Shown here: one piece after another, positions 1,960 to 54,938 of the stretch
Numbering within the stretch: position 1 is the first letter of the stretch
How the letters are laid out: the number at the start of each line of letters is the position of its first letter
Assembly: GCF_003946545.1 (NCBI RefSeq)
Contig: NZ_RHOA01000011.1
Span: 1-64,000, forward strand
Length of the DNA: 64,000 nt
Direction of reading: 5' to 3'
Source of the DNA: Levilactobacillus tangyuanensis
GTDB lineage: Bacteria; Bacillota; Bacilli; Lactobacillales; Lactobacillaceae
The notes under the pieces: generated by a model
What the model saw: only the letters and a program-made list of their open reading frames with translations
Databases searched by the model: none
What the model was told of the DNA's origin: nothing
Position numbers and translations under genes: made by a program

Positions 1960-2202
1960 ATGACTGAGAATATTGTCTTGGCCCCGCCGGCAGCCCTTGA
2001 GCTAGCGAAACATCTAGATGAATGGTCAAAATGGCGGCAGACCAAGGATCCGTTGACCGCGGATCGGGATTGGCAACGATTTATTGCGAAGAGTCGCGAC
2101 AAGGCCGAGTGGGAAGCGGGCCTAGCGGTCGAAATTGACCGATGGGAGGCGCTCCACGCCATTCAATTAACCCTAGAGGACTCTTTATTAGGGATTCGTT
2201 AA
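1960..2202 (+). CDS. Small hypothetical protein (80 aa)
   Basis: Unrecognised, charged and Trp-rich helical protein. AAGGAGGT (1945-1952) lies 7 bases before ATG 1960; the preceding in-frame GTG at 1957 is too close to the ribosome site. No export signal. It has its own terminator immediately downstream. Confidence 0.65.
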   Translation: MTENIVLAPPAALELAKHLDEWSKWRQTKDPLTADRDWQRFIAKSRDKAEWEAGLAVEIDRWEALHAIQLTLEDSLLGIR

Positions 2203-2230
2203 ACGAGCATATAAATGATAATAAGACGCT

Positions 2231-2272
2231 AAAAGACGATCACAATCGCTGGGGTTCTGATCGTCTTTTTTG
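2231..2272. terminator. Terminator
   Basis: AAAAGACGATCA pairs with TGATCGTCTTTT around a 15-base loop, with T tracts on both strands. It separates the small gene from the convergent XRE regulator. Confidence 0.8.
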
Positions 2273-2298
2273 GTAGGATGGGGTCACCCCCATGGGCG

Positions 2299-2901
2299 TT
2301 ACTGACTGACTGGGCGTCTAGAATATTTAATCGTCCCGAATAACAGTCCCACCCAGCAGGCGATGGCGAGGTAGAGGATGTCGGTTAGCAGTCCGGGACG
2401 ATGGAGGTGCCAAGCCATTGCAACGCCTACGGTACTGATAACGGCGAATAACAAGAGCCAGAGCCGGCTCTTCGGCCAACGGGTGGCCGGATCTTCCTGG
2501 GTGAGCGAGCTGGCAAATTGATTCAGTTGGTTGAGTGTCCAGAAGTTTAATAGGGCAATGGGCAGTAGCAGGCCCTTAGCCGACGTGAATTGGTCATCAA
2601 ACAGGAGGGCAACCATTAAAATAATATTCATGATCGTTAGATTACGGATGGTTGGATGCAGGGCATGCAGAACCTCAGGTTTCCTTAAGGTGTCGGTCAT
2701 ACCGTTGTCTTCTTTCAATAGGACATCTAGCGATAGGGTGTACAGGTCGCTGAGCTTAATGAGACTATCGATATCGGGATAGCTATGCCCGGTTTCCCAG
2801 CTGGAAATGGTTTGGCGTGAGACGTGTAAGGACGTCGCCACCTGACTCTGAGTTAGATTTTTTTGTTGCCGTGTTTGTTGTAAACGTTCCCCGAATTTCA
2901 T
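2299..2901 (-). CDS. XRE-family regulator with membrane-embedded C-terminus
   Basis: Residues 1-65 form a Cro/C1-type helix-turn-helix (motif SQVATSLHVSRQTISSWE). A linker follows, then about four hydrophobic segments between residues 90 and 195. This arrangement, a DNA-binding domain anchored in the membrane, is common in Lactobacillaceae and suggests sensing of envelope or membrane signals (inference). AAAGGGGGAA precedes the ATG. Targets are unknown; neighbours are unrelated metabolic genes. Confidence 0.85.
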   Translation of the reverse strand: MKFGERLQQTRQQKNLTQSQVATSLHVSRQTISSWETGHSYPDIDSLIKLSDLYTLSLDVLLKEDNGMTDTLRKPEVLHALHPTIRNLTIMNIILMVALLFDDQFTSAKGLLLPIALLNFWTLNQLNQFASSLTQEDPATRWPKSRLWLLLFAVISTVGVAMAWHLHRPGLLTDILYLAIACWVGLLFGTIKYSRRPVSQ

Positions 2902-3021
2902 GATGGTTCCCCCTTTAGAACTGTCTTCACCATACCAAATATCGCTAAAATTGCCTAGCTGAGTTTCTAAGCATGACCGTTATATCAAGGATTTCGACCT
3001 ATTAAAAATAAAAATGAGCAA

Positions 3022-3050
3022 ACAAAAAGACGCCATGGTGGCGTCTTTAA
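3022..3050 (-). terminator. gnd terminator
   Basis: AAAGACGCC pairs with GGCGTCTTT across a short loop, with a T tract on the minus strand directly after the gnd stop. Confidence 0.8.
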
Positions 3051-3063
3051 TTTAAAATTTCGT

Positions 3064-4506
3064 TTATTGTTCTTCGTACCAAGTGTAGTGGAAGTTCCCA
3101 TCGCGGTCGTTCCGTTCGTACGTGTGAGCACCGAAGTAGTCCCGTTGTGCTTGTAACAAGTTAGCAGGTAAGACTTCAGCCCGGAAGCTATCGTAGTAAG
3201 TGATAGCGGCGGATAAACTAGGAACGGGGATGCCGGCTTGAACAGCCATGGCAACCACGTCACGGATGGATTGTTGGTACTTGCCAGCGATATCCTTGAA
3301 GTAGCTATCGAACAGCAAGTTAGACAACTTAGGATCCTTGTTGAAGGCTTCGGTGATGTTTTGGAGGAATTGGGCCCGGATGATGCAGCCGCCCCGCCAG
3401 ATTTGTGCTAATTCACCGAACTTCAAGTCCCAGTCGTTAGCTTCGGAAGCAAACCGGAGTTGTTCGAAGCCTTGAGCATAGCTCATCAGCTTACCAAAGA
3501 AGAGGGCTTGGCGAACTTCTTCGACGAACTTGTCCTTGTCAGGGATGTCAACGTTGCCTTGCTTTTCAGCAGCTGGCAATTCCTTAGAAGCCTTAACCCG
3601 TTCGTCCTTCAACATGGAGATGTAACGAGCGTAAACGGCTTCGGTAATCACTGATTGAGGAACTTGAACGTCCAGGGCATCTTCGGAACTCCACTTACCA
3701 GTCCCTTTGTTGTTCCCACGGTCCTTGATGGCGTCGACGATTGGTAAGTTCTTGTCGTCGCCCAAGTCATCCTTACGAGTCAAGATGTCGGCAGTGATTT
3801 CAACTAAGTAGCTGTCCAATTCACCCTTGTTCCAGTCTTTGAAGATGTCAGCCATCTCGTCGACTGAAATACCGGCAACGTTACGCATGATGTTGTAGCT
3901 TTCATCGATCAGCTCTTCATCACCGTATTCGATCCCATTGTGGACCATCTTGACGTAATGACCAGCACCGTTAGGGCCGATGTAAGTTACACAAGGCTTG
4001 CCATCTTGAGGCGCCTTGGCGGCAATCTTGGTTAAGATTGGTTCGACTAAGTCATAGGCTTCCTTTTGGCCGCCGGGCATCAGTGAAGGTCCTTGTAAGG
4101 CACCTAATTCACCACCGGAAACACCCATACCAATGAAGTTGATCCCAGATTTGTCGAGTTCGGCGTTACGAGCCATCGTGTCGTGGAAGTTCGTGTTCCC
4201 ACCATCGATGAGGACGTCACCCTTGTCCAAGAGTGGTAATAATTCATGAATAACGGCATCGGTTGGCTTACCAGCCTTAACCATCATGAGAATCCGCCGA
4301 GGGGTTTCCAAAGACTTCACGAAGTCCTCAACGTTGTAGCTTGGGACCAGTTTCTTTTCACTGTGGTCTTTCATAACTTGTTCGGTCTTGCTTGCGGAAC
4401 GGTTGTAGATACCAACCGTGTAGCCGCGGCTTTCAATGTTCAGGGCTAAGTTCTTGCCCATGACCGCCATACCAACAACACCAATATTTGCTTTTTGATC
4501 TGCCAT
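3064..4506 (-). CDS. gnd: 6-phosphogluconate dehydrogenase, decarboxylating
   Basis: 480 residues, the standard length. It oxidises 6-phosphogluconate to ribulose-5-phosphate and CO2, the decarboxylating step that feeds the phosphoketolase pathway. Seen: Rossmann loop [13 protein letters not shown] at the N-terminus, the substrate signature [19 protein letters not shown], and the catalytic [17 protein letters not shown] region. The open frame runs upstream to 4572, but ATG 4506 has GGAAGG 6 bases before it and matches the family start. zwf is 1.2 kb upstream on the same strand, separated by the marR/GNAT pair, so the two are not a simple operon. Confidence 0.97.
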
Positions 4507-8739: not shown

Positions 8740-10641
8740 TTAGTTAGTGGCCAATTGTTGAGTGACCGGGTTAGATTGCTTGGCAACCCGAGGCCGGTAA
8801 CGAATGAGCCGCATCGCGTTGAAGATGACGACTAGAATGGAAGCTTCGTGGACAAACATCCCACTGGCCATGTAGATGTAGCCGTAGACCAGGCCGATTA
8901 ACAGGAAGGCCACGGTTAGGATGGCAATCGTGATGTTTTCCTTCGTGTTGGCGGCGGTCTTCTTGGCTAAGCCAACCGCATGGTTCAAGGCAGTGAAGCT
9001 GGATTGCATCAGGACGACGTCGGCCGTTTCGATGGCAACGTCGGTCCCACCACCCATGGCGATGCCGATGTTAGCGGTGGCCAAGGAAGGGCTATCGTTA
9101 ATCCCGTCACCGACGAAGGCCACGTGATGACCCATGTCTTGGAACTTCTTGACGAAGGTGACCTTATCGGATGGCAAGAGGTCGGCGTGGACCTCGTCGA
9201 TGCCCAGTGATTCGGCGACGGCTTGAGCGGTGGTTTGGTTGTCACCGGTTAACATGACCAGGTGCTTGATGCCTTGGCGTTTCAGAGCGGCCAAAGCGGC
9301 AGGAACCTCATCGCGAACCGTGTCGGCCACGCCTAAGATAAAGGCTAACTTCCCTTGGTAACCGACTAAGACTGTGGATTGACCCTTGTCTTGCATGTCG
9401 TGGAGGTCACTGAGTTGGTCAGCGGATAATGTGATGTCGTGGTCCTTGAGCAAAGCGGCATTACCAACGAACAGGTCGTGGTCGTGCCATTGGCCAATCA
9501 TCCCACGACCCTTGACCGTTTCGGTTGCGATGGTCTTAGCATCGGCGGCAACGTGATTGATTAAATGAGCCGTAATGGCTTGGGCCAACGGGTGATCGGA
9601 GGTTTGTTCGACCTGGGCCACACCGGCGAGTAGGGACCGATCATCGGTATAGCTGTGAACGCTGGCAACGGTCATTTTGCCAGTCGTCAGGGTCCCCGTC
9701 TTATCGAAGACTAAGGTGTCAACCTTGGCCAGGCTGTCGACCACGTCGCCACCCTTGATGAGGATGCCGTTCTTAGCACCGTTACCAATTCCGGCAACGT
9801 TAGAAACGGGTGCACCGATAACCAGAGCGCCGGGGCAACCAAGCACCAGAACCGTGATGGCCAGCTTGAGGTCACGTGAGAAGACGAAGACCAGAATGGC
9901 AATGATTAAGACCGCTGGCGTGTAGTATTGGGCAAATTTGTCGATGAATTTTTCGGCCGGGGACTTGGTATCTTGGGCTTCTTCGACCAATTCAATAATC
10001 TTAGAGAAAGTTGTTTCGTCTCCGACCTGGGTGGCCTTAACTTGAATCATGCCGCTTTCAACCATGGCGCCGGAGTACACGCCGTCGCCGTTTCCCTTGT
10101 TAATGGGGCGGGATTCACCGGTAATGGAGGCTTCATTAACATAACCAGATCCATCGATGACTTGTCCATCGACGGGAACCTGGCCACCGGCCTTGACTAA
10201 GACGATGTTGCCTTCTTCGAGGTCATCCACGTCAACGTCTTCTGTTGTTCCATCGTCGGTCACCAGTTGGGCAGTCGTTGGGGCCATTTCGGTTAGGGAT
10301 TGAATGGCGCCCCGCGTCTTGGCGAGTGTCTTTTGTTCTAGGTAGGAACCGAAGAGAAAGAGGAAGGTCACGATCGCAGATTCCTCGAATTCACCGATGG
10401 CAAAGGCCCCGATGACGGCGATACCAACCAGAAGCTCAATGCTGAAGACCTTAGCCTTCAGTGCACTGATGGCCCGTAAGACAATGGGAGCCGCGGCAAT
10501 GATTGAGGCAATAATCCAAGCCGTGTCGGTAACGTAAGGAATTTTAGTGAACCAGGTGTTCAGGAAGCCGAAGATGATCAGGCCGGCTGACCAGAAGGTA
10601 ATGGGATTAGTGTGGGCATAAATATAACGTTGAATAGCCAT
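8740..10641 (-). CDS. Heavy-metal P1B-type ATPase with CPG motif
   Basis: 633 residues: several N-terminal membrane helices without a metal-binding HMA domain, actuator loop with TGES (174-177), membrane motif Cys269-Pro-Gly, phosphorylation site D313KTGTLT, the HP motif of metal pumps (SDHPLAQ), and the hinge GDGINDSPSLA. The family exports soft or transition metals. The usual membrane motif is CPC, SPC or CPH; here it is CPG, so the metal cannot be assigned from known classes. A GAAAGGATCG ribosome site precedes ATG 10641. The promoter carries a Crp/Fnr-type box at about -41.5, like the promoter of the metallochaperone-dps operon at 15.2 kb. Confidence 0.9.
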   Translation of the reverse strand: MAIQRYIYAHTNPITFWSAGLIIFGFLNTWFTKIPYVTDTAWIIASIIAAAPIVLRAISALKAKVFSIELLVGIAVIGAFAIGEFEESAIVTFLFLFGSYLEQKTLAKTRGAIQSLTEMAPTTAQLVTDDGTTEDVDVDDLEEGNIVLVKAGGQVPVDGQVIDGSGYVNEASITGESRPINKGNGDGVYSGAMVESGMIQVKATQVGDETTFSKIIELVEEAQDTKSPAEKFIDKFAQYYTPAVLIIAILVFVFSRDLKLAITVLVLGCPGALVIGAPVSNVAGIGNGAKNGILIKGGDVVDSLAKVDTLVFDKTGTLTTGKMTVASVHSYTDDRSLLAGVAQVEQTSDHPLAQAITAHLINHVAADAKTIATETVKGRGMIGQWHDHDLFVGNAALLKDHDITLSADQLSDLHDMQDKGQSTVLVGYQGKLAFILGVADTVRDEVPAALAALKRQGIKHLVMLTGDNQTTAQAVAESLGIDEVHADLLPSDKVTFVKKFQDMGHHVAFVGDGINDSPSLATANIGIAMGGGTDVAIETADVVLMQSSFTALNHAVGLAKKTAANTKENITIAILTVAFLLIGLVYGYIYMASGMFVHEASILVVIFNAMRLIRYRPRVAKQSNPVTQQLATN

Positions 10642-50476: not shown

Positions 50477-50550
50477 AGTTTCACCTCATTTACACATGAT
50501 TATTAACTTCATTTTACACAGTCGTCAGTTGAAAGCAAGGAGGGATGACC

Positions 50551-50949
50551 ATGCACATGACGTTTGATTATTGGCGTCGGCAGGTCGGCGTTGGCCTACT
50601 CTGGGTGGTGGCGTTGGCCCTGCTAGGCCATTTGGATTATAGTCGGTGGACCCTGGTGAACGGGTTCACGATGGCGGATGGTTACTTTGTCATCAGTTGG
50701 TTAGCGTTTCCGTTCGCCAAGTGGGCCGTTCTAGTGGATGGCCGACAGGTACAGGCACCGACCATTCGGCGGCGACGTAAGACCACCGTGAGTGGCCTGA
50801 ATGAACAGATGCTACGGCCGAAGCGGATTCAGGCGGCCGCCAAGGCGCCACTACAATGGTATTGGCTGGGGCTGATCGATGCCGGTCTCGTCTTTTTCGG
50901 CCCGCTGGTTGTCGGCGGCTATCTGACCTATTCGTTACGGCACAATTGA
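50551..50949 (+). CDS. Hypothetical membrane protein (132 aa)
   Basis: Hydrophobic segments at about 10-27, 40-60 and 102-125 with a basic loop (RRRRK) between. ATG 50551 has AAGGAGG 7 bases upstream; ATG 50545 overlaps the site. Unrecognised family. Confidence 0.7.
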   Translation: MHMTFDYWRRQVGVGLLWVVALALLGHLDYSRWTLVNGFTMADGYFVISWLAFPFAKWAVLVDGRQVQAPTIRRRRKTTVSGLNEQMLRPKRIQAAAKAPLQWYWLGLIDAGLVFFGPLVVGGYLTYSLRHN

Positions 50950-50964
50950 ATTGTGCTGTTTTTT
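50938..50964 (+). terminator. Terminator overlapping stop codon
   Basis: GCACAATT pairs with AATTGTGC across the TGA stop and is followed by T6. Confidence 0.8.
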
Positions 50965-51409
50965 AATGCATTAACGTGCAAATACGGACGTTTTTGCCAC
51001 TTAACGAGTGATAAGAGGATTTCATGGTAAAGTAAGGACAGTTGAAAGGGGTCAGTTTTACGGCAACTGATTTCGCCACTCAATGAGTCATTATATCGGA
51101 TGATTCTTGGGTTGGCGGCCCACGTTTTTTAATGAATAGTTGGCCTGACAGTGTGTCAGTGTTCGTCGTTTCTTAGGCTTGAATCGTTCATAGCCAATCG
51201 GCTGAAGAGTAAGTAATGGTTGTTGGAAGACCTAAGGGATAATGACTAGTTTGGGGCTTGGGGGAGTGCTAATTAGCCAGCGATAGTAATTAAATAGTCA
51301 ACATGAGAAAGGACCATTTGCGGATGGCTCTTTTTTATTGCAAACGAAAGGAATTCAGGTTACATTAGTGGGTGAATAGATTTGACGCTGAATTAACCAA
51401 AGGGGTGTG
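50965..51409. other. Intergenic region upstream of the two-component system
   Basis: About 440 bases. No pheromone precursor with a convincing ribosome site was found; the best short frames encode 14 residues (51242-51286) and 21 residues (51303-51368). It ends in a terminator at 51311-51337, implying something upstream is transcribed. No clear pair of LytTR-type direct repeats was located. Confidence 0.4.
51311..51337 (+). terminator. Terminator-like hairpin before the response regulator gene
   Basis: GGACCAT pairs with ATGGCTC (one mismatch) and is followed by T6, about 75 bases before the regulator start. Could be an attenuator. Confidence 0.55.
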
Positions 51410-52171
51410 ATGTTGGTGCTGGCCGTTTATTTATGCGAAGACAATGTTGAACAGCTTACCCATTATCGTGACGTGGTGGAACGGTACATCATGATTAACG
51501 ATTACGATATGCAGGTGCGGTTGGCCACACCAAGCCCACGGGAACTACTGAATGATTTGGAAAAGGCCTCGCCGGAGTACGCGCTATTTTTTCTGGATAT
51601 CGAATTTCCAGGCGAACAAACGACGGGACTGGAAACGGCGATTAAGATTCGGCAACACTTGGGATTTGCGGAAATTGTGTTCGTGACGACCCACTCGGAA
51701 ATGGCATTACTGACTTTTGAGCGTAAGGTGGAGCCCATGGACTTTGTCGTGAAAGACCTAGGTCGGGCTCAGATTGATCAGAAGCTACGGGAAAATGTGG
51801 ATTATGGTTATCAACGCTATACCAATTACTTAGGAAATACGGAAAATCTTTTTAGTTATACGATCGGTGGTCGTAAGTTCAGTCTGCCGATGGGGGATGT
51901 GTACTTTGTGGCCACGGCCGAGTCTCCCCACAAGGTCACGGTTCACGCGGCCAATCAACTGGTCGAGTTCCCGGGGTTTTTAAAGGATATTGCGGATCAG
52001 TATCCCGAGCTCTATCGCACGGATAAGAGCTTCCTGGTTAATCTCGATAATGTTAGTGGCATCGATTCGGTGAACCGGCGGCTGGTCTTTCCTAATGGGG
52101 ATGAGACGGACGTGGCAACCCGACGATTTCATGAGGTCAAAACATTGGTACAGAAGCATCTGAAGGGTTAG
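51410..52171 (+). CDS. LytTR-family response regulator (AgrA/ComE-like)
   Basis: About 253 residues. Receiver domain (1-130): acidic pair in LCEDN, phospho-acceptor Asp in FFLDIEFPG, conserved Lys in FVVKDLG. The LytTR DNA-binding domain (about 150-250; FSLPMGDVYFVATAESPHKVTVH) binds pairs of direct repeats. The start is uncertain: ATG 51410, TTG 51413 and GTG 51416 all follow AAAGGGG. Directly followed, with no gap, by two histidine kinase genes, so the three form one operon. Confidence 0.9.
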   Translation: MLVLAVYLCEDNVEQLTHYRDVVERYIMINDYDMQVRLATPSPRELLNDLEKASPEYALFFLDIEFPGEQTTGLETAIKIRQHLGFAEIVFVTTHSEMALLTFERKVEPMDFVVKDLGRAQIDQKLRENVDYGYQRYTNYLGNTENLFSYTIGGRKFSLPMGDVYFVATAESPHKVTVHAANQLVEFPGFLKDIADQYPELYRTDKSFLVNLDNVSGIDSVNRRLVFPNGDETDVATRRFHEVKTLVQKHLKG

Positions 52172-53497
52172 GTGATCGGTGTGCATTTCTTAGATTACCG
52201 GTTCTGGATAAACTTGGTTCTGGCGGTCACCATGCAGTGGTTTATCACGCTGTGGGTGGGGGTTATCCGCCCACAAAACTGGAAGCTGCCCTTGAAATGG
52301 ATTGGGTGGGGCTTGATTCCGGCTATTTTAGGTCGGCCCTGGACCCTTATCTTGCCACCGCTTAGTGCGCTGGTTTATTTGATTCGGCATCGACCGAAGT
52401 TAACGCTCATCTTCGTTAACGCGACCATCGTGATTTACCTGGTGGTGGTGATGGTTAATGATGTGGTCCGTCAAGTGATTGTTGAACTGATTGGCGTGGC
52501 AGGTAGTGAGCAACCCTTGGTGATTGCGGGCCGGTTAATTTTCCAATTGTTAATCTATTCGCTAATTTCATTGGCGGTGTCAGGGATGCGGGTTCAACCG
52601 GGGAATCTGGAACGGTTGTCCTTTAGCCGCAAGGAACAGTGGACCGTCATGGCGCTGTTAACCAGCCTGGCGATCCTGGCGCAGGCATCGTCGATGATTA
52701 TTCACCGATTAAAGATTAACCATGCCATGCTGACCTTTGCTCTAAGCATTGAATTAGTTATGGTCCTACTGATCAGTGCCAGCCTGTTTTTCTTCCTCCA
52801 GAGTTTCTTTGATCGGCAACATGTTCGGGCCAAGTTTCAAGAAAATTTACTACAGACGCGCTACGATCGGCGAATCTCCAATCAGGTTCAGGCTATTCGG
52901 GAATTTAAGCAGACCTATCAGAAGCAGATGTTGAAGCTGGGTGACTATCTGGACGCCGAGGACTATGACGGCTTGGCGGCCTATTACGAAACGTTAAATT
53001 CGCGGTGGCAGGCGACCAGTCTACGGGCCGGTATTGAGGTGGATGGCTTACACCAGTTGAGTGATCCGGCGCTGAAGAGTCTGCTTTTCCAAAAGATGCT
53101 AGCGGCCCAGAACCATGGGATTGCCTTTCAACTAGAGATTCCCGACAAGGTCGCGGCGTTGCCGATGGAAAGTGTCCACCTGTTGCGAGTGGTCGGGGTA
53201 CTGTTAGACAATGCGATTGAGGCCTGTACGGGTCAGTCCCAACCAGAAATCTATTGTGCCATTCTCGACTATCCCGGTGTCATTGAATTTGCGGTGGCCA
53301 ATCCGGTGTCGACCGATACCCCTGGTAAGATGAGTCACTTCATGGAGGCGGGGTATACCACCAAGGGCGGCGGGCACGGTCTGGGCTTGAGTTCCGTCCA
53401 GGAGATTATTAATCAAACCGATAATGCCTCGCTGCAGGTGGTTTATAAGCGGGGGATGCTTTACTTTACAGTGATGTTAACCAAACCAGGCAGGTGA
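52172..53497 (+). CDS. AgrC-like histidine kinase lacking the phospho-acceptor His
   Basis: 441 residues. About six membrane helices (1-215), a dimerisation/H-box region (about 235-290), and a GHKL ATPase domain with intact N box LLDNAIEA and G box GGGHGLGLSSV. In the H box, where relatives read F-x-HDY-x-N, this protein reads FKQTYQK: Gln247 replaces His, Thr replaces Asp and Lys replaces Asn. It could bind ATP and transfer phosphate but cannot be phosphorylated at the usual site. The start is GTG 52172 (or GTG 52181), immediately after the regulator stop. The next gene is a complementary paralogue that keeps the His. Confidence 0.9.
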   Translation: MIGVHFLDYRFWINLVLAVTMQWFITLWVGVIRPQNWKLPLKWIGWGLIPAILGRPWTLILPPLSALVYLIRHRPKLTLIFVNATIVIYLVVVMVNDVVRQVIVELIGVAGSEQPLVIAGRLIFQLLIYSLISLAVSGMRVQPGNLERLSFSRKEQWTVMALLTSLAILAQASSMIIHRLKINHAMLTFALSIELVMVLLISASLFFFLQSFFDRQHVRAKFQENLLQTRYDRRISNQVQAIREFKQTYQKQMLKLGDYLDAEDYDGLAAYYETLNSRWQATSLRAGIEVDGLHQLSDPALKSLLFQKMLAAQNHGIAFQLEIPDKVAALPMESVHLLRVVGVLLDNAIEACTGQSQPEIYCAILDYPGVIEFAVANPVSTDTPGKMSHFMEAGYTTKGGGHGLGLSSVQEIINQTDNASLQVVYKRGMLYFTVMLTKPGR

Positions 53498-53501
53498 TAA
53501 C

Positions 53502-54830
53502 GTGATTACGGTTAGTCCCATCAGCTTTTATATTTCGGACTTCTTCCTAGTCTTTTGGCTGGTCTATTTTCAGTATTATTGGTTTCCTCAGGTCCGACCG
53601 CAGAAACATTTTTTGCTCTATTGTGCCCTGCTAGCGGGAATTTTCACCGCTATCGATGTCGTGAATCCCTTTACGAAGAGTGCGGTCCTTGGGGCCTTCT
53701 CAATCATTGTCCTGCTGTGCATTGAGCTGGGATGGTTGGGCGGTCATCACCGGTGGCAGTATATCCCGTCCTTCATTGACGTGACGATTTTGGCCTACCT
53801 GCTGACGGAATTCATCGATATGGTGATTCTGGCGGGGATGATTCATTTGGTGGGGCCAGTCTTTGCGGCCAGTCTCACGGGAACGATGATTGAAATGGCG
53901 TTGGATACGATGGTCTTTAGCCTGTTGGCGGTGGGTATTTGGCTAACGCGAGCCCCCATGGAAAACCTGATCCAAGATATCATGGGGAGCTCCATGGAAT
54001 TCCTATTTCTAGGCTTTATGTCCATCCTGGGTGTGGTTTATATTCTGTTTGAGTACTCGCTACAGAGCCTGGCAAATTCGGAACAGTACCTGTTCTTCCT
54101 GGCGGGGATCGCGGGCATTCTATTAATTGGTTTAACGCTCAGTACATATATGCTAATGCAAACGCACTTACAACAGGAGCATGCCCAGCTACAGGGGCAA
54201 CAACAGGCCTTTAGGGAGCAATATACCAAGGAACTCGACCGTCAGGTACAGGCCATTCGAAAGTTTAGTCACGACTATCAGAACATGCTATTGGGACTAG
54301 GGGGGTACCTGGAGGATAAAGACTACGAGGGTTTTCGACAACTCTACATCGACATCCGGTCGGGTTGGACGACGAGTAATGCTGCGGAATTAACGCTGGA
54401 AGACTTGACGAACATTCCCGGAACCCGGTTAAAGTTTCAGCTTTATCACAATTACCTGTTGGCCCGGGAACAGGGAGTCCAGCTGTTCATCCAGGTGCCT
54501 GAGCCCCTCACGGCTACGGTAGCGGCCTTGAAACAGATTAGTCAGGTAGTTGACCGGGTTTTGCCGGAAATGGTTCCAGCGCTTAGTAAGATGGATCCTG
54601 CGGTGGTCACGGTAAGCTTAAACGAGTCCGCTAAGCAGATTCAGCTACAATTGACGTTCTCGGTTCCCAAGGATGCCAAAATCGATGGTCATCATCGGGT
54701 GGTGACGGACGTCGGCGTCATGAGTTTTGCCAGTGTTCGAGCCAGCCTGCCCCAGTCGGCAACCAGCTCGTTACAGCTAAAGCTGCATTGGGGGCAATTG
54801 TTGATTGCGCTCCCAAAGGGTGTTGGATAG
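53502..54830 (+). CDS. AgrC-like histidine kinase with His but degraded ATPase domain
   Basis: 442 residues; starts 4 bases after the previous kinase gene. About six membrane helices (1-220), then an H box with intact His257 in RKFSHDYQNMLLGLGGYL, alignable without gaps to the partner (QVQAIR-x-F...YLxxxDYxG). The C-terminal region aligns to the partner's GHKL domain, but the N box reads VLPEMVPAL instead of LLDNAIEA, and the G box region reads VGVMSFASV without the Gly pattern. It should be unable to bind ATP but can accept phosphate. An ordinary stop ends it at family length, so this is divergence, not truncation. Confidence 0.88.
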   Translation: MITVSPISFYISDFFLVFWLVYFQYYWFPQVRPQKHFLLYCALLAGIFTAIDVVNPFTKSAVLGAFSIIVLLCIELGWLGGHHRWQYIPSFIDVTILAYLLTEFIDMVILAGMIHLVGPVFAASLTGTMIEMALDTMVFSLLAVGIWLTRAPMENLIQDIMGSSMEFLFLGFMSILGVVYILFEYSLQSLANSEQYLFFLAGIAGILLIGLTLSTYMLMQTHLQQEHAQLQGQQQAFREQYTKELDRQVQAIRKFSHDYQNMLLGLGGYLEDKDYEGFRQLYIDIRSGWTTSNAAELTLEDLTNIPGTRLKFQLYHNYLLAREQGVQLFIQVPEPLTATVAALKQISQVVDRVLPEMVPALSKMDPAVVTVSLNESAKQIQLQLTFSVPKDAKIDGHHRVVTDVGVMSFASVRASLPQSATSSLQLKLHWGQLLIALPKGVG

Positions 54831-54910
54831 GCCGGATCATTCACAAAGTCGACTGTCTAGACTGTTGACGTAAAACTGACAGTATAGGTGGTGAAAGATT
54901 CTGAAACCGC

Positions 54911-54938
54911 TTGCAAATCGGTGGGCGTCTGATATACT
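54911..54938 (+). promoter_or_regulatory. Strong extended -10 promoter without a following gene
   Basis: TTGCAA (54911-54916), 16-base spacer, TG-A-TATACT (54930-54938). No protein gene begins within 600 bases on this strand. Confidence 0.6.

Follow-up and report, generated by a model that had tools for sequence, protein, structure and literature searches.

The window considered here, the whole 64,000-nucleotide stretch of Levilactobacillus tangyuanensis DNA that was analysed (contig NZ_RHOA01000011.1, forward strand), holds three consecutive genes, designated R, A and B, which follow one another with no or almost no gap, the final base of R immediately preceding the start of A. R encodes a response regulator in which Pfam matches both a LytTR and a receiver domain, and its receiver residues are conserved (E, D, D and K in 33/33, and T in 34/34, of the alignment rows with a letter at that position). 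A and B encode two histidine-kinase-like membrane proteins of the same layout, each of which has lost the part of the kinase active site that the other retains. To judge from sequence, R, A and B probably form a split two-component system of the AgrC (HPK10) class, itself probably bifunctional, in which A would provide ATP catalysis in trans and B the phosphoacceptor histidine together with, probably, a phosphatase activity. The features of the locus are given in Table 1.

Table 1. Positions of the R, A and B genes, their active-site segments and the upstream elements in the window
Feature	Position	Strand	Remarks
R, LytTR-type response regulator	51407-52171	+	Intact receiver: E11, D12, D64, T94, K116
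A, 441 amino acids, proposed catalytic subunit	52172-53497	+	GTG start; membrane part of helices; DHp lacking the phosphoacceptor; CA domain intact
A, dead H box FKQTYQK	52904-52924	+	Gln247 codon 52910-52912
A, intact N box LLDNAIEA (residues 344-351)	53201-53224	+	
A, intact G box GGHGLGL (GHGLGL = residues 401-406)	53369-53389	+	
B, 442 amino acids, proposed acceptor subunit	53502-54830	+	GTG start; membrane part of helices; DHp intact; CA fold lacking the ATP-site motifs
B, intact H box FSHDYQN	54264-54284	+	His257 codon 54270-54272
B, LPEMVPA at the place of the N box	54561-54581	+	Alignment with A
B, CA domain, N and G boxes gone, predicted fold retained	54432-54827	+	Structure model; dN/dS
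Conserved control region	50950-51035	+	Inverted repeat and extended -10, read by eye
Candidate structured RNA, about 300 nucleotides	51036-51336	+	3' end in the window set by eye
Likely R-A-B promoter, TTGCAA, 17 nucleotides, TACATT	51338-51366	+	Read by eye

Aligned with each other, A and B show 22% identity over 432 positions (expectation value, E, 1e-24), with no gap across the H-box segment, where A reads F-K-Q247-T248-Y-Q-K251 and B reads F-S-H257-D258-Y-Q-N261. On the ATPase side, A carries LLDNAIEA and GHGLGL, whereas B carries LPEMVPA at the place of the N box and has no glycine-rich stretch at that of the G box. The H box of the AgrC/HPK10 class, His-Asp-x-x-Asn, is found in B and not in A, and its N and G boxes are found in A and not in B. 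In Pfam, A matches HATPase_c_5 at 43.5 bits (cut-off 22) and HATPase_c at 32.6 bits (cut-off 26.4), whereas for B no ATPase family is matched up to E 1 and neither a HisKA-type nor an ATPase cut-off is reached; its only matches, both below the cut-off, are SPOB_a (13.0 bits, cut-off 28.1) and a chance match to Annexin. The first-pass annotation of this DNA had already described the common layout and gapless H-box alignment, the Gln247 of A and the loss of its Asp and Asn beside intact N and G boxes, and the HDYQN of B beside PEMVPA and a missing G box; the translations of the open reading frames (ORFs) and the alignment confirm the layout and residues, and alignment and Pfam confirm the motif state of each protein.

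The same arrangement is found throughout the genus. A search with A gave a match in 34 of 35 Levilactobacillus genomes, that is, in 34/34 of those at least 90% complete, the lone miss being a genome 72% complete; B lies directly downstream of A in all 34 extracted loci, and R, whole or broken, precedes A in 33 of them. At the remaining locus (L045) the contig ends before A, and a different contig of this genome has a LytTR match close to its end. When named genomes were scanned using the alignment of A, 30 loci came up, 28 under the name Levilactobacillus, one under Lactobacillus sp. and one under uncultured Lactobacillus, and L. senmaizukei was the nearest (92%). By joint alignment and by a separate pattern count, His-Asp is present in none of the 34 A proteins and all of them carry the N box (LDNA-x-E) as well as HG-x-GL, in open frames of 438–452 amino acids. 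The motif counts for B cover 41 proteins longer than 300 amino acids, all of which carry HDYQN, in agreement with the H(E/D)xxN/T pattern of an acceptor protein, and none the N-box pattern; a deletion runs through the G-box region, and H257, D258, Y259, Q260 and N261 are invariant in the 40 proteins of the B alignment. A loose GxG occurs in two of the 41, once in the linker and once (GEGF, in the second B of L061) in the equivalent region, and was rejected as a G box since neither case has the HG-x-GL of A. By motif (34 A, 41 B) as well as by Pfam, the ATP site and the phosphoacceptor are therefore on separate proteins, and this reciprocal pattern is more than chance because it is kept in all 34 orthologous loci extracted. 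The constant pairing of A and B beside one regulator is borne out by these counts, and the question raised in the first-pass annotation, whether the two genes always occur together with the same reciprocal losses, is answered in the affirmative for 34/34 loci.

Seven genomes (L060-L066) have a tandem second B behind the first, and both copies keep HDYQN and are without the N box; in L063 the first copy is broken near its start. Other irregularities were seen at individual loci: in L048 R is interrupted by a Mutator-family transposase gene (8889-10064), in L043 R and A are separated by transposase genes of the IS200 and IS605 types (2177-4007), and R is split over two overlapping frames in L066.

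The former acceptor site of A is variable. At the old His position there are 24 Gln, five His and five Arg (n = 34), at the old Asp position T, I, N, L, Q or R, and at the old Asn position K, Q, R, D or G. The acceptor codons, CAA/CAG, CAC/CAT and CGA/CGG, are all a single step away from Gln codons, and five changes are required on the tree, which suggests that the position changes as a drifting position would.

Outside the genus, the boxes were read in 41 distinct related kinases from the rest of the family and in 20 from elsewhere in the order, picked from among the stronger matches to A or B or because they lay in the same loci. HD, the Asn at +4 and the N-box D-N-(A/S) are kept in every one of the 61, and the G box in 60, the exception being a cut-short frame. 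Searches with the B profile covered 397 genomes of the family (including 25 genus members with matches) and 395 of the order (seven such members), and among the matches listed the best outside the genus scored 103 bits, against at least 616 for the listed B proteins inside it. In G077, which holds the best relative outside the genus, one ordinary kinase stands alone behind its regulator, in the same order of R and then kinase. Reciprocal pairs elsewhere were looked for and rejected, as the same-locus kinases in L164/L198, L171, L196, L197 and L203 each hold both halves; one such kinase in L171 ends before its G box.

The first-pass annotation had attributed the pair to a gene duplication followed by complementary loss. 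The complementary and maintained loss is upheld by the 34 loci, and a single duplication giving rise to A and B is not established by the tree. In a sample of eight of the 34 A proteins, 11 of the 41 B proteins and 40 outside kinases, A forms one clade and B another, and the two lie together on one side of a branch with a support of 64, so that the best tree makes them each other's closest relatives, a placement which is weakly supported. The CA domain of A is as similar to those of ordinary kinases (identity 0.327) as these are among themselves (0.333), and that of B is far from them (0.128). In the first DHp helix the identity between A and B is 0.406, against a mean of 0.302 between A and ordinary kinases, and 0.453 for ordinary kinases among themselves.

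By sequence and fold alike, both proteins are related to AgrC. The best sequence match of both profiles is AgrC 6e52 (E 2.9e-35 for A and 1.6e-9 for B), and the AgrC equivalog of NCBIfam is matched by A and B at 132.7 and 52.6 bits, far under its cut-off of 500. The model of B (mean predicted local distance difference test score 72.5) keeps the CA fold, whose comparison with the ATP domain of AgrC, 4bxi, gives a template modelling (TM) score of 0.73 and the top row of the structure search (Z 15.4, 137 residues, root-mean-square deviation 2.6). For A, only the CA part is quoted, the whole model being weak, and it gives a TM score of 0.89 against 4bxi. A and B thus resemble the AgrC/ComD-type HPK10 kinases in being closest to them in sequence and fold and in having a LytTR regulator, and differ from them in that AgrC carries both halves in one protein, whereas Levilactobacillus has them on A and B. 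Of the components of an agr locus, the LytTR regulator is present and AgrB is not found: PF04647 had no match in the 35 genus genomes, in a search whose sensitivity is little tested, as the control matched in one of 14 genomes and none were over the cut-off. No peptide gene was recognised near R, A and B; of the genes downstream, those tested encode a pseudouridine synthase and a Usp protein.

The best explanation of these observations appears to be a heterodimer. A and B would join via their DHp helices, and the CA domain of A would phosphorylate His257 of B across the dimer, in trans, after which phosphorylated B would pass its phosphoryl group on to R, at Asp64. In turn, Asn261 of B, as part of an HDxxN phosphatase motif, could dephosphorylate R whenever A is missing or switched off. 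By itself, neither protein would then be a kinase, and the balance of A to B, rather than a single polypeptide, would set the balance of kinase and phosphatase, as in CheA3/CheA4. The search of this genome with A matched A and B only, and no other AgrC-type kinase was therefore found that could serve B; the profile of A gave two matches, A being the sole one listed. The other two PF14501 matches in the genome lie in frames of 564 and 623 amino acids, unlike AgrC-type kinases in length, and were rejected as partner kinases. Of the two benefits proposed in the first-pass annotation, an AND gate of two different sensors finds no support, since nothing in the analysis bears on ligands, and insulation from other peptide-sensing kinases finds none either, as no such kinases were found in this genome. 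In AgrC, a single protomer with bound ligand reportedly suffices to activate the two, and if this behaviour holds here an OR gate would be no less likely than an AND gate.

Ratios of nonsynonymous to synonymous divergence (dN/dS) were obtained from pairwise counts within nine species groups, covering 27 of the 34 loci with 29 pairs of A and 32 of B, and both genes are under strong purifying selection. The values, which are rough because synonymous sites are near saturation (proportion of synonymous differences 0.55-0.74), are, for A, 0.046 in the membrane part, 0.031 in the linker and DHp and 0.057 in the CA domain; the corresponding parts of B have 0.052, 0.024 and 0.062. The N and G boxes of A have 0.025 and 0.032, whereas the equivalent segments of B have 0.106 and 0.081, and the H-box segment of B has 0.004.

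Besides this near-saturation, several points weigh against the heterodimer. The H-box segment of A also has a low dN/dS (0.008), meaning that the helix is constrained and the acceptor residue is not, and the role of the A DHp is not fully explained by the proposal; such a constrained helix would be expected if it continued to pack against a partner, which is not proof that it does so. The CA domain of B is likewise conserved (dN/dS 0.06), so that B may be doing more than accepting phosphate. Over the whole DHp, the nearest single ordinary kinase is closer to A (0.337) than B is (0.298). The whole model of A is poor (predicted TM score 0.36), and a trans geometry is required for the phosphorylation of B. 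The genome search scores few candidates per genome, and a distant third kinase could have been missed by it. Finally, His stands at the old acceptor site of A in L048, L051, L053, L055 and L065 (as THN in a clade of four and as KHT in one), and in these five species A may be a weak self-acceptor. The first-pass annotation had counted a regained His in A, or regained N and G boxes in B, against its reading; the former is seen in these five of 34 proteins, without the Asp and Asn, and no B has an N box.

Among other explanations, the one that survives best is that B is a hub, either a Spo0B-like phosphotransferase or a phosphatase of phosphorylated R, fed by another kinase or a small molecule, with A as an ATP-binding regulatory receptor only. 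Spo0B has a DHp and a CA-like domain and makes no use of ATP, and the model of B matches it (1ixm, Z 10.9; 1f51, Z 11.6), values that may reflect a common arrangement of helical bundles, as those under about 13 can; B also retains the phosphatase Asn, and A is without an acceptor. We regard this explanation as unlikely, because the N and G boxes preserved in every A would be needless in a mere receptor, A and B are the only proteins that the search with A found in this genome, and the two stand together in all 34 loci.

A good deal less probable is that A works alone, through another residue or by self-phosphorylation in the five species with His, and that B is a modulator. The His at position 247 in these species and the constraint on the A H-box segment would fit such a role. 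However, all 34 A proteins are missing the Asp at +1 and the Asn at +4, the five with His included, and the B of the same five species keeps HDYQN intact. An alternative acceptor His in A, which the first-pass annotation had named as a possible objection, was not seen and was rejected as a candidate, no His in the DHp region being conserved in the alignment of A proteins.

It seems highly improbable that A and B form a heterodimer without catalysis, whose sensor output is only the control of R by a phosphatase: B keeps HDxxN and, when free, could act as a phosphatase in the manner of CheA3 (PMC3591291), but the invariant N- and G-box residues of A would be left unexplained. Decay of paralogues, in which pseudogene-like damage hit different halves by chance, is hardly to be believed and was rejected as largely refuted, for in spite of the damaged loci L048 (transposase gene in R), L066 (R in two frames) and L063 (broken first B), the frames of A are open in 34/34, both genes are under strong purifying selection and the same pattern recurs in 34 loci.

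The heterodimer reading has several counterparts among known systems. According to George Cisar et al. (2009), acceptor-dead and catalysis-dead protomers of AgrC reportedly complement each other in mixed dimers; those were mutants of one gene, whereas in Levilactobacillus there are two genes with different sensor parts, and the genus appears to have fixed naturally, by analogy, what this complementation shows. Spo0B resembles B in its DHp and CA-like fold (Z 10.9 for 1ixm), but it is a soluble protein that relays phosphate from one receiver to another, whereas B is a membrane protein encoded beside a kinase half. In Rhodobacter sphaeroides, ATP binding and the phosphoacceptor are likewise on two proteins, CheA3 and CheA4, neither of which autophosphorylates alone, and a model has been described in which the split gives switch-like responses (PMC3591291). 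The acceptor protein there is also shown to be a phosphatase, HE/DxxN/T being the phosphatase motif, an activity which we infer for B from HDYQN; these chemotaxis kinases are missing whole domains (PMC3591291), whereas A and B keep the full layout of membrane sensor, DHp and CA and have lost active-site motifs alone, reciprocally, and in the AgrC class. Hik36 and Hik43 of Synechocystis are two genes which jointly supply one kinase working with a regulator, and differ in being a CheA homologue split into genes far apart on the chromosome (PMC7656254). In Corynebacterium glutamicum, ChrS without a working CA domain heterodimerises with its paralogue HrrS, a case which comes from a laboratory evolution run, has a working kinase as the partner and is not reciprocal (PMC9491836).

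CheA3/CheA4 and Hik36/Hik43 are CheA proteins split at the level of whole domains, whereas A and B are full-length receptors of another class, with a complementary motif loss kept genus-wide. No description of this pair was recognised in the full-text literature searched, most subscription journals being outside its coverage, and surveys by domain presence would probably miss the pair, because B reaches no HisKA-type or ATPase cut-off in Pfam. If the proposal is correct, the theory of switch-like responses in split kinases becomes testable in a small system, which would also be a natural counterpart of the AgrC mutant complementation, and the duplicated B genes would show one catalytic subunit given several receptors. 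A wider version of the proposal, which as a whole we hold to be speculative and rather doubtful, is that of a fixed, obligate split kinase of the AgrC class in which A serves one or, in a subclade, two acceptors (B1 and B2), free B is a phosphatase, the response is switch-like, and the main output is the adjacent RNA of about 300 nucleotides, RNAIII-like and without AgrB or AgrD.

The region upstream of R, between the preceding ORF and R itself, is probably non-coding. Within it, an inverted repeat, AACGT-N10-ACGTT (50973-50992), is followed by an extended -10 (TG at 51025-51026 and TAAAGT at 51028-51033, read by eye), and the distance from the stop of the upstream ORF to a GTTGGAA-type motif, with the repeat and the -10 between them, is 88 nucleotides in 29/29 loci where both could be placed. 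The inverted-repeat element has one exact match in the genome, at this locus, and with up to two mismatches 18 matches, against six in a backward control. LytTR direct repeats usually have a spacing of 21 nucleotides, and none were seen by eye in the RNA promoter; that R regulates this promoter is a guess, because what is conserved there is an inverted repeat, its halves 10 nucleotides apart, and not the LytTR direct repeats.

The candidate RNA that would start from this promoter is about 300 nucleotides long, with a range of 244-348 among those relatives whose terminator was detected, and its end is formed by a hairpin and a T run. In the window, the terminator finder stopped at an earlier site and a separate scan did not list 51336, and the hairpin is shown by the fold and the alignment. 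The consensus has 40 predicted pairs; in 11 of them both partners are altered in one or more sequences, eight of these being in the terminator hairpin, so that the evidence for structure outside this hairpin is thin, and the fold of the window RNA is only moderately better than that of shuffled sequences (z -2.25). DNA searches with the RNA gave matches in 27 of the 35 genomes, each at this locus (in G020, on the contig that carries R), and no Rfam family matched it. The RNA is a possible output of the R-A-B system, and an RNAIII-like role for it is a guess. The likely promoter of R, A and B, behind the RNA, is conserved in the upstream alignment and was not listed by the consensus scan.

Two further features flank the locus. 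A small ORF of 134 amino acids lies upstream of the RNA (50545-50949), with relatives in 29 of the 34 loci and no Pfam match above the cut-off. Downstream of B there is a promoter-like site (54896-54938) with a TG before its -10, and its -35 is overlapped, as read by eye, by TGAAACCGCTTGCA, a catabolite-repression-like sequence.

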